32,698 nt of DNA from positions 1-32,698 of IMG/VR virus record IMGVR_UViG_3300032607_000145; one strand, 5' to 3'. Below, piece by piece: positions 2 to 1,474 of this stretch. A program made the translations under genes and the position numbers. Origin of the DNA: a virus. The notes below the pieces were generated by a model that saw only the letters and a program-made list of their open reading frames with translations, was not told the origin of the DNA and ran no database searches. How positions within the stretch are numbered: position 1 is the stretch's first letter; each line of letters begins with the position of its first letter.

Positions 2-70
2 TTAGCAGATCGCAGATAGTTCTCTATATAAGTTCTATTTGCTTTGGCTGCTGCAAAGACACTTGATTGC
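2..70. repeat. Terminal direct repeat, left copy
   Basis: These 69 bases are identical to 32630-32698 at the other end of the window. Base 1 (c) does not match base 32629 (t), so the identity starts at base 2. Exact overlap of this length is what a k-mer assembler leaves when it closes a circular or circularly permuted phage genome. It could also be a short genuine terminal repeat, but the gene on the left continues sensibly into the gene order on the right, which favours circularity. Confidence 0.9.
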
Positions 71-263
71 TTGATGATGAACTCGACTGCTTTGTTCGGG
101 CTAATTTCCATAATCTTTCCATTTCATCTTGTAGATCTAATCTAGCTTGCCATCCTCGCTTTTGCTGTACTAGGTCTAATTGTTTTCTGCGTTTATCTAA
201 AGGCCAACTAAGTAACTCTCTGGCCTCACATTCTTTACGCCATTCCTCACTACTTTTATCCAT
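24..263 (-). CDS. Small charged phage protein (DUF7696-like)
   Basis: This encodes 79 residues. The first 55 are strongly charged and look helical (acidic residues near 5-15, then a K/R-rich stretch and a WxxRLDLQDEM segment), and the tail carries six serines in a row followed by a Gln-rich end. The pattern of a CEARxLLxxPLxxRR motif followed by an L..EM..LW segment resembles short uncharacterised phage proteins of the DUF7696 type; this is recalled from memory, not searched. The ATG at 263 overlaps the corrected methyltransferase stop (256-258) by 8 nt, so it is probably translationally coupled to it. The last 47 bases lie in the terminal repeat. Function unknown. Confidence 0.75.
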   Translation of the reverse strand: MDKSSEEWRKECEARELLSWPLDKRRKQLDLVQQKRGWQARLDLQDEMERLWKLARTKQSSSSSSNQVSLQQPKQIELI

Positions 264-1091
264 CTAATTTTTTATTTAAAAGTTTCCATGCTGTTGCTGC
301 CACAAGTGGTACTTGTCCGTTTCCAATGGCTTTAAGTCTGTCCACCCTACAGGCCACCCCATCAGCCACTCTACCCACTCTGGGTTCAGAGGCCCACCAA
401 CCTGTGCCGATAGGGGTATCTCGTTCCTTTCGTATTCCGATGGATTTCCGCCATCTTTGTGCATCCTCGATACTGGAGTGGGCCATAACCTTGGATTGTT
501 CACTTGATCGACCAGTCTGATTTGTATGGGTTGACCATTCGCTCGATGATTCTTGCCTTGTTTGAGCAAGCCTGAAGTCCTCCCCCCCCCCCGCAATCTG
601 GCGTTCGCCACAAGCCAGAGCCTATCCCTTTGGTGAACTGCTCCAACATGGGCAGCTCCCATAACAGTCCATTTTGAGTCATACCCCAACGAGGAAAGGT
701 CTGCAAGCACTCTATTGAATCCTCTATGAATGAGCATTGGGGAATTTTCCACGAATACGAATCTTGGTCTAATTTCGCTAACCACCCTTGCCATGTGAAA
801 CCACATACTTGATTTTTCTCCTTCAAGTCCTTTTCCTCTGCCTGCAATGGAGATGTCTTGGCATGGAAATCCCCCAGATACAACATCAACAATTCCTCTC
901 CAAGGCTTTCCGTCAAAGGTTTGAACATCATCCCAAATCGGGAAAGTCGGGAGAATTTTGTCATTTTGTCTGGCGCACAATACGCTTGCTGGATAGGCTT
1001 CCCATTCAACAGCGCAAACTGTTCTCCATCCAAGGAGTTTTCCCCCAAGTATTCCGCCACCAACGCCTGCGAAAAGAGCCAACTCATTCAC
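256..1091 (-). CDS. DNA cytosine-5 methyltransferase, frame interrupted at a poly-G tract
   Basis: It transfers a methyl group from SAM to cytosine in DNA, probably to protect phage DNA from host restriction or to mark it. Visible motifs are I (FAGVGGG, residues 7-13), IV with catalytic Cys77 (GGFPCQ, 73-78), VI (ENS, 115-117) and VIII (QRDRLW, 154-159). As assembled, the frame runs from 1091 to 276 and ends in sequence belonging to the nested gene. The expected motif X region (RVDRLKAIGNGQVP, then an AATAWKLL helix) lies in a third frame that ends at 256. One extra G (or two fewer) in the 11-G tract at 582-592 joins the two parts into 278 residues (277 with two fewer), a normal size for a small phage enzyme. 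The start is GTG 1091, overlapping the TGA of the upstream gene (GTGA), with GAGGAG five bases upstream. The family call is very secure; whether this copy is active depends on the true tract length. Confidence 0.9.
276..1087 (-). CDS. Second protein fully nested in the methyltransferase gene, different frame
   Basis: A second reading frame starts at ATG 1087, four bases after the methyltransferase GTG, and uses the same GAGGAG. As assembled it stops at 500 (195 residues). With the same one-base correction at 582-592 that repairs the methyltransferase, it continues to 276 and gives 270 residues. The sequence is not a random shadow: it has an SRLSRFGMMFKPL segment, FHAKTSPLQ near 95-103, SWKIPQCS, FPRWGMTQNG, SGLWRTP, a later LWPTP and a closing NPEWVEWLMGWPVGWTDLK segment. 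As I recall, this motif order is seen in phage and metagenome proteins encoded at methyltransferase loci and is often mislabelled as methyltransferase. No catalytic motif is evident. Function unknown; overlap with the methyltransferase suggests a linked role in DNA modification or anti-restriction. Confidence 0.72.
582..592 (-). repeat. Eleven-G homopolymer (minus strand) breaking two overlapping frames
   Basis: The plus strand shows 11 consecutive C, read as G in the transcript. The methyltransferase and the nested frame both need the same register shift here: one added G or two removed. Long G tracts are prone to slippage by polymerases and to miscounting in sequencing. Either explanation fits; see findings. 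Confidence 0.9.
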
Positions 1092-1474
1092 ATTTGCTCC
1101 TCAAGTTGCTTGATCCGTTGGCTGATCCTTGCTCGCCATTGCTGCCATCCTTCTCCAGCATAAGCCTGGACTCCTATTTCTTTTGCTTTGTTTATTGTTG
1201 CTTCTTCTGAACTATACCAAGGCAACTCAGGCCGTTTATTTACTTTTGGTTCTTCTATTACTATTTCATCCTCGAACCTAAATTGCCCTATCCAGGTACT
1301 TGCATGGGGTATGAACTCCATCTCTGTATCCTTTGATTTCCAATAGGCAATATGGTTAGGCAAAGCCTCTAGCGCTTGTTGCTGCTCATCTTTTCTAAGA
1401 GCTTCAAACTTACGCTGCGCTACACGCTTACTTACTTTTCTTGGATATAACGCCCAAAATGTTTCAAACATCAT
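1088..1474 (-). CDS. Replication-protein C-terminal-type domain protein (DnaT/O-like)
   Basis: This 128-residue protein begins with FWALYPRKVSKRVAQRKF and continues with a helical ALEALPNHIAYW segment and an FIPHASTWIGQFRFEDE segment. That order is typical of the C-terminal domain of phage replication initiators and DnaT/primosome-like proteins, where it is thought to recruit the host helicase. The usual N-terminal winged-helix DNA-binding domain is absent: the domain starts at residue 3. The remainder (WYSSEEATINKAKEIG, then EGWQQWRARISQRI) also recurs at the ends of such proteins. It may act as a helicase-recruiting partner for a separate origin binder. The stop overlaps the methyltransferase GTG. 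Confidence 0.7.
   Translation of the reverse strand: MMFETFWALYPRKVSKRVAQRKFEALRKDEQQQALEALPNHIAYWKSKDTEMEFIPHASTWIGQFRFEDEIVIEEPKVNKRPELPWYSSEEATINKAKEIGVQAYAGEGWQQWRARISQRIKQLEEQM
1097..1102 (-). promoter_or_regulatory. Shine-Dalgarno sequence shared by two overlapping starts
   Basis: GAGGAG on the minus strand lies 5 nt before GTG 1091 (methyltransferase) and 9 nt before ATG 1087 (nested protein). Both spacings are workable, so one site can feed both frames. The stop codon of the upstream replication-type gene (TGA 1090-1088) falls between them, so terminating ribosomes could also restart at either codon. Confidence 0.7.

Follow-up and report, generated by a model that had tools for sequence, protein, structure and literature searches.

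We found that a C5-cytosine methyltransferase of a tailed phage is encoded, in the phage itself and in its relatives, by two same-strand reading frames that overlap almost completely, and that in part of this family both frames run through a long poly-G tract whose length sets which end follows which beginning. The first frame (alpha) is predicted to carry motifs I-VIII and X, and the second (beta) a TRD-like part and motif IX after an N-terminal region, so that the two would form one enzyme. Judged from the sequences compared, this is probably a phase-variable, dual-coded, two-subunit phage C5-methyltransferase in which a single homopolymer switches both subunits.

The window, that is, the whole 32,698-base IMG/VR virus record analysed here, encodes tailed-phage head genes (portal, scaffold, terminase, DNA ejection) and recombination genes. 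Its methyltransferase locus (Table 1) contains C5-cytosine methyltransferase motifs I (minus strand, about 1056-1076), IV (PCQ, about 855-872), VI (ENS, about 738-755), VIII, IX and X, all of them present and spread over two frames, with IX and X out of register with their own N-terminal parts. The motif numbers in alpha and beta are those that we take to apply from general knowledge, the labels of motifs IX and X being backed by an HHalign match at motif IX. As a preliminary description of this locus had stated, the methyltransferase frame opening at GTG 1091 holds motifs I, IV, VI and VIII and then continues into a foreign end: the corresponding ORF (276-1091, minus strand, 271 aa) finishes with NPEWVEWLMGWPVGWTD and a short tail, and PF00145 (Pfam) matches it at E 1.6e-31 with a coverage of alpha residues 4-163 only. 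The second frame, from ATG 1087, stops at 500 (minus strand, 195 aa; phrog_1008, E 2.1e-11) with its end in the methyltransferase frame down to 276, and the motif X sequence RVDRLKAIGNGQVP sits in a third frame ending at 256, both as described. The alpha second part is out of phase with both normal starts, of which the beta ATG follows the alpha GTG by 4 nt; an ORF of 76 aa containing motif X (256-486) could begin at an internal ATG at 486. The window copy is off register and yields no motif X product from the normal starts. The shared register change placed at 582-592 is corroborated by the closest relative (L012/L280, one contig, 96% nucleotide identity to the window), in which both frames are intact and motifs IX and X lie in beta and alpha, respectively.

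Table 1. Layout of the methyltransferase locus and its immediate neighbours in the window
Feature	Position	Strand	Remarks
Shine-Dalgarno-like GAGGAG	1097..1102	-	single site ahead of both starts; read in sequence
Alpha first part, C5-methyltransferase motifs I, IV, VI, VIII	593..1091	-	GTG start 1089-1091
Beta first part	593..1087	-	ATG start 1085-1087; +1 frame relative to alpha
G11 tract (C11 on the plus strand), then AGG	582..592	-	proposed register switch
Beta second part, TRD-like distal region and motif IX (about 336-386)	276..581	-	read in the alpha frame in the window; phrog_26627, 7.6e-20
Alpha second part, motif X RVDRLKAIGNGQVP (about 307-348)	256..581	-	in the third frame in the window; ORF reading
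Upstream gene, replication-initiator-like	1088..1474	-	stop overlaps alpha start; phrog_270, 8.5e-14
Downstream gene, DUF7696	24..263	-	PF24751, 6.2e-17

The window methyltransferase is probably an orphan phage enzyme, since Pfam, phrog and PADLOC tests of its immediate neighbours brought up no recognisable restriction enzyme. PADLOC gave no match for the downstream gene and three upstream neighbours, nor for beta.

Long overlaps between genes on one strand are generally regarded as rare and constraining, and the preliminary description had taken this one to be rare at its length. This view was not supported: near-complete overlap is the usual layout in the phage and prophage family found here, and thus the usual form of a widespread phage enzyme. 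With each contig counted once, two long open frames are present in 112 of 138 phage contigs, and both frames exceed 200 aa in 71 of the 80 bacterial-genome loci that we used out of 178 relatives (themselves from 272 candidates), the hosts including Acinetobacter, Pseudomonas, Pantoea, Halomonas, Nitrosomonas and others. The IMG/VR relatives come from a search with the second frame (at least 578 of 599 candidate stretches confirmed, 80 used) and from a second search with the C-terminal part of beta as query (80 loci, 2 shared with the first set). Of the 151 IMG/VR and phage locus records in which alpha is complete, 120 have two frames of at least 215 aa. The other 31 comprise 22 copies out of register at the tract site of the window (site C; some share a contig), 2 out of register at another tract site (site B), one with a small shift and no long tract (L121), two from one contig with a beta stop at 143 (L028 and L139) and four distant records (L124, L008, L009 and L010). 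An overlapping beta-like frame is also present in Streptomyces phage phiBT1, in a Bacteroides, a Synechococcus and a Stenotrophomonas phage and in one mycobacteriophage, and three plasmid records have a beta match at E<=1e-5.

The layout of the starts is conserved as well. The beta ATG lies at +4 in 101 of 106 loci, the aligned alpha start codon reads ATG, GTG or TTG plus AATGAG in 84 of the 106, and a Shine-Dalgarno-like match of at least 4 nt is present in 77 of 106 relatives. Three-frame anchor maps of the loci with a motif IV anchor and no G run of 8 or more assigned frame 0 to alpha and frame 1 to beta; wherever motifs IX and X were found, beta contained the former and alpha the latter. 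Two loci depart from this pattern, L121 by a small shift near the start and phiBT1 (L010) by having motif X in its second frame. None of the ten phage records examined has both frames annotated.

Both frames are under selection. When synonymous alpha codons were permuted in 87 representative relatives (less than 93% nucleotide identity), beta stayed open with P <=0.024 in every one of them (median 0.0005); a mean of 5.1 beta stops was expected and 0 were seen, beta being open throughout in 87/87. The suggestion that chance would not produce such an arrangement is thereby confirmed, and the permutation, together with the open frames of the relatives, supports the claim of two selected proteins in a near-complete same-strand overlap. 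In the N-terminal part, 3582 beta stops would be expected from the pairwise alpha-synonymous differences and 0 arose, and beta scored 4.62 by BLOSUM where 4.16 was expected, the pairs being non-independent in both comparisons. For the C-terminal part, 35 tract-bearing locus records (some sharing a contig) gave 0 stops in either direction, where 488 and 112 were expected. Alignment of related phage loci and codon-position divergence, which had been proposed as a check, showed that both frames are constrained, unevenly. Divergence at alpha positions 1, 2 and 3 of the N-terminal part was 0.203, 0.135 and 0.384, so that alpha dominates there, and at the beta positions of the C-terminal part 0.097, 0.095 and 0.211, so that beta dominates. 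As the freest N-terminal codon position, alpha position 3, is beta position 2, beta is more loosely constrained than alpha in that part.

The second protein had been suggested as a possible co-evolved partner of the methyltransferase in a modification or anti-restriction unit; we rejected a separate role because of its homology to TRD and motif IX regions. By this homology, beta is the half that alpha lacks, contributing the TRD-like part and motif IX to the same methyltransferase. HHalign matched the end of beta to the region around motif IX in a single-chain mycobacteriophage enzyme (probability 96.7, E 4.3e-10), in which IX and X share one frame (L009), and the TRD-like part of the L240 beta matches the same enzyme at 21 of 30 residues by BLASTP. 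The family phrog_1008, 'DNA methyltransferase', matches the L012 beta at E 2.9e-24. Paenibacillus larvae phages (Fernvirus) have two overlapping CDS, for example BLOOM_56 and BLOOM_57, both annotated as DNA cytosine methyltransferase and the latter nested in the former; the inner CDS of phage Bloom (BLOOM_57) matches the L012 beta at E 2e-14, and direct BLASTP of this beta against the outer Paenibacillus CDS gave no match. The alpha profile of the relatives matches M.HhaI over the N-terminal part at E 1e-19. No Pfam model matched beta in any of 97 members (0/97), and no NCBIfam model matched it in two members (L012 and L170). AlphaFold2 models of beta from 16 and 97 sequences reached pLDDT 35 and 53, too low to use, and Foldseek with the predicted low-pLDDT beta returned 0 PDB matches and four viral ones at E<=0.001, all with a TM-score below 0.3. 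The TRD-like part is placed in beta by homology, and both frames vary over that same stretch.

A 1995 NAR abstract reportedly placed the beta polypeptide of EcoHK31I in an alternative frame of its alpha gene. That beta has 176 aa, against 228-347 aa for the phage beta in the intact pairs examined, where the overlap covers about 94-99% of the longer gene. M.EcoHK31I is a two-polypeptide C5-methyltransferase (YGGCCR) with the same motif division as the phage pair, compared by motifs: according to PMC3404938, its larger subunit carries motifs I-VIII and X as well as the predicted TRD, and its smaller subunit motif IX. The phage pair differs in having, by homology, a TRD-like part in beta, in being phage-borne with no restriction partner seen, and in the hypervariable G tracts of part of the family. 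M.AquI is likewise a split C5 enzyme, whose small subunit carries both IX and X (PMC3404938), whereas X lies in the alpha frame of the in-register relatives, and the phage pair does not follow the AquI division. The phiBT1 pair of gp9.1 and the frame overlapping it does look AquI-like, since its second frame holds both IX and X.

Long G tracts are concentrated within these genes. Among the 106 representatives we counted 36 G/C runs of at least 9 in 86,429 nt inside the genes and 1 in 551,038 nt of flanks, making such runs about 230-fold denser inside the genes than in the flanking phage DNA; a coding homopolymer enriched over background is a feature of phase-variable genes. G lies on the coding strand in 35 of the 36 inside runs, and no run of exactly 7 or 8 occurs inside. 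The alpha ORF has a tract of at least 9 Gs in 34 of 106 loci (2.2 expected from codon permutation) and none in the other 72. Site C is over-represented, with 22 tracts, because the locus set was gathered with the window proteins; without it, 14 of the 36 inside runs remain. Among the bacterial-genome loci, 2 of the 80 used have such a tract, both in MAGs.

The tracts recur at several positions. Site A, in the motif I region (alpha nt about 45), is a G9 tract in register in 8 of 8 locus records (including L027, L060, L091 and L145). Site B, just after motif IV, was found in at least 120 IMG/VR stretches (L317-L436), 74 of them in register, 35 out of register (35 of 109 resolved) and 11 unplaced, with two internally inconsistent stretches kept in the counts. 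Site C lies directly after the beta WRTPD (alpha nt about 498), and an exact pattern retrieved 68 contigs with at least 9 Gs there, or 69 with the window.

At site C the relatives range from G10 to G17, all tract lengths being assembler consensus from metagenomes. We could place the register of 58 of the 69 copies: 20 are ON (both frames joined to their own ends), 20 window-like and 18 in the third register, with 11 unplaced. Stricter anchors resolved 52 of the 69 (17 unplaced), with 18 ON, 19 window-like and 15 third; the ON share is about one third, with no enrichment. The sequence around the tract is otherwise steady in these 52 copies: motif I lies 483 nt from the tract in 44, 484 nt in 7 and 482 nt in 1, and motif IX follows the tract at 207 nt in 46, while the tract itself has 10 to 15 Gs. 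We scored four segments per copy, namely each frame between motif I and the tract, and each frame after the tract as far as slightly beyond its own motif (X for alpha, IX for beta); 207 of the 208 segments are open, the sole exception being in L278. It is therefore highly improbable that the off-register copies are decaying pseudogenes. Although the window copy can make neither a normal alpha nor a normal beta, neither frame is interrupted on either side of the tract, bar that one segment, over the stretches tested in the 34 off-register copies, of which the window copy is one.

Register changes readily between relatives. A tree of the copies has 24 register changes against 24.7 with shuffled labels, placing register at random on the tree. 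Tract length differs in 56 of the 80 site C pairs with at least 95% flank identity, and 28 of the 47 such pairs with both registers resolved differ in register. Tract length thus varies among close relatives with the gene otherwise intact, as in phase-variable genes.

G tracts of 10 or more are error-prone in short reads, and the register differences could be sequencing or assembly errors in the long G run, the genes themselves being always in register; we think this unlikely. Pairs with identical flanks bear on it in both directions. Four of the 17 such pairs at site B (among the at least 120 stretches) differ in length (14/15, 15/13 twice and 17/10 Gs), and at site C L014 has G14 and L258 G12 with flanks identical except for one C after the tract; length is therefore imperfectly reproducible, and some consensus error is possible. 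The same mismatches are what fast switching predicts, as does error. The remaining pairs agree, 13 of 17 at site B and 10 of 10 at site C, the latter formed by nine contigs in three groups; the sample independence of the agreeing contigs was judged by their data-set numbers. Moreover, about two thirds of the resolved site C copies are off register, which we judge far above consensus error, a gap of 7 Gs is hard to explain in this way, and error cannot create the enrichment of tracts in these genes. Contig ends are equally two-sided: 5 of the 68 site C contigs end within about 35 nt past the tract and five others begin at it or at most 10 nt away, which error would explain and which fits mixed populations too. 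The tract is recurrent and length-variable, and related phages have it in each of the three registers, a point absent from the preliminary description; the off-register state therefore appears to be biological and not only a miscount, and the tract looks like neither simple error nor decay.

The widest gap among otherwise identical contigs separates L341 and L416 at site B, with 17 and 10 Gs and identical flanks. Assemblies appear to break at the G tract: the 34.9-kb contig IMGVR_UViG_3300043775_000080 (L107, L288) begins in a G tract, and the same site recurs near the end of another stretch.

The near-uniform registers at site C, unrelated to phylogeny, and the two downstream frames that remain open would also be expected of a recoding site, at which slippage of RNA polymerase or ribosome makes all frames from any length, so that length hardly affects fitness and the registers approach equal thirds by drift. 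An ON share of about one third indeed also fits transcript slippage or relaxed selection. We nevertheless give a recoding site rather little credence, because most of the sampled family members have no such tract, the tracts turn up at several positions, and in-register copies prevail at site B, with no other sign of a recoding site. We know of no established case of efficient slippage on G runs. In 300,000 of the 475,107 characters of a review (PMC5009743) we found no mention of G runs.

We therefore return to the reading in which one homopolymer switches both subunits. The single ribosome-binding site and the starts 4 nt apart (ATGAATGAG) are observed, and this layout would allow both subunits to be made together. 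The poly-G tract in the dual-coding region, whose length varies among contigs, would gain and lose bases by slipped-strand mutation. As poly-G encodes glycine in every frame, the tract should cost little in the ON register, which would give both full subunits. In the window register, the N-terminal part of alpha would be joined to the C-terminal part of beta (motifs I-VIII and IX, without X) and beta would be cut at 195 aa; in the third register, alpha would be cut at about 195 aa and the N-terminal part of beta would be joined to motif X, without IX. The frames show that off-register products of the normal starts are without one motif, and activity would therefore be lost. The likely benefit would be a phage population mixed for methylation, which would hedge between hosts restricting unmethylated and hosts restricting methylated DNA. 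A three-position switch, in which the off-register chimeras have an activity of their own (altered specificity, DNA binding or dominant inhibition), seems doubtful to us. The window register would then supply a 271-aa protein of alpha motifs I-VIII with the TRD-like part and motif IX of beta, and the third register the N-terminal part of beta with the motif X part of alpha.

Phase-variable methyltransferases (phasevarions; PMC13076061) and C-terminal homopolymer phase variation in Helicobacter canadensis (PMC2823697) have been described. Such systems share with the phage pair a coding tract with a length-dependent frame, but one gene is switched in the cases we saw, whereas the phage tract shifts two overlapping genes. 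Split C5 enzymes, the division of IX and X, and homopolymer phase variation of methyltransferases and of C-termini are already known; the new element, not seen in the literature searched, is a single tract that switches both overlapping genes of a phage enzyme and recurs at several positions. Neither a phase-variable dual-coded methyltransferase nor a phage example of an alpha/beta pair was among the matches listed in that literature, in which subscription papers are scant. If the proposed switch is real, one homopolymer acting on two overlapping phage genes is an unusually compact phase-variation device. The methyltransferase may decide which hosts can restrict these phages, and phage hedging against restriction by phase variation becomes a directly testable question.

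Several individual records deserve mention. The depositors of L003 (PP083311.1, 23175-23903) annotated the beta frame as a hypothetical protein and those of L008 (PP079418.1, 32989-33489) as a DNA-cytosine methyltransferase, the alpha frame being omitted in both. The record of phiBT1 gp9.1 (L010) says that the methylase 'may be inactive', and a second overlapping frame carries IX and X; gp9.1 may be the alpha half of a split enzyme. Gene 71 of mycobacteriophage IrishSherpFalk (L009) has TRD, IX and X in frame, yet a 177-aa beta-like frame overlaps its catalytic part, perhaps as a fusion relic or as the ancestral state. L033 and L036 differ in the part that precedes the TRD-like and motif IX stretch but are nearly identical over that stretch and over the alpha end that overlaps it, which suggests that a module recombined across both frames at once. 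Finally, L048 contains two diverged methyltransferase copies head to head on one contig, at 753-1292 (minus strand) and from 1357 onward (plus strand).
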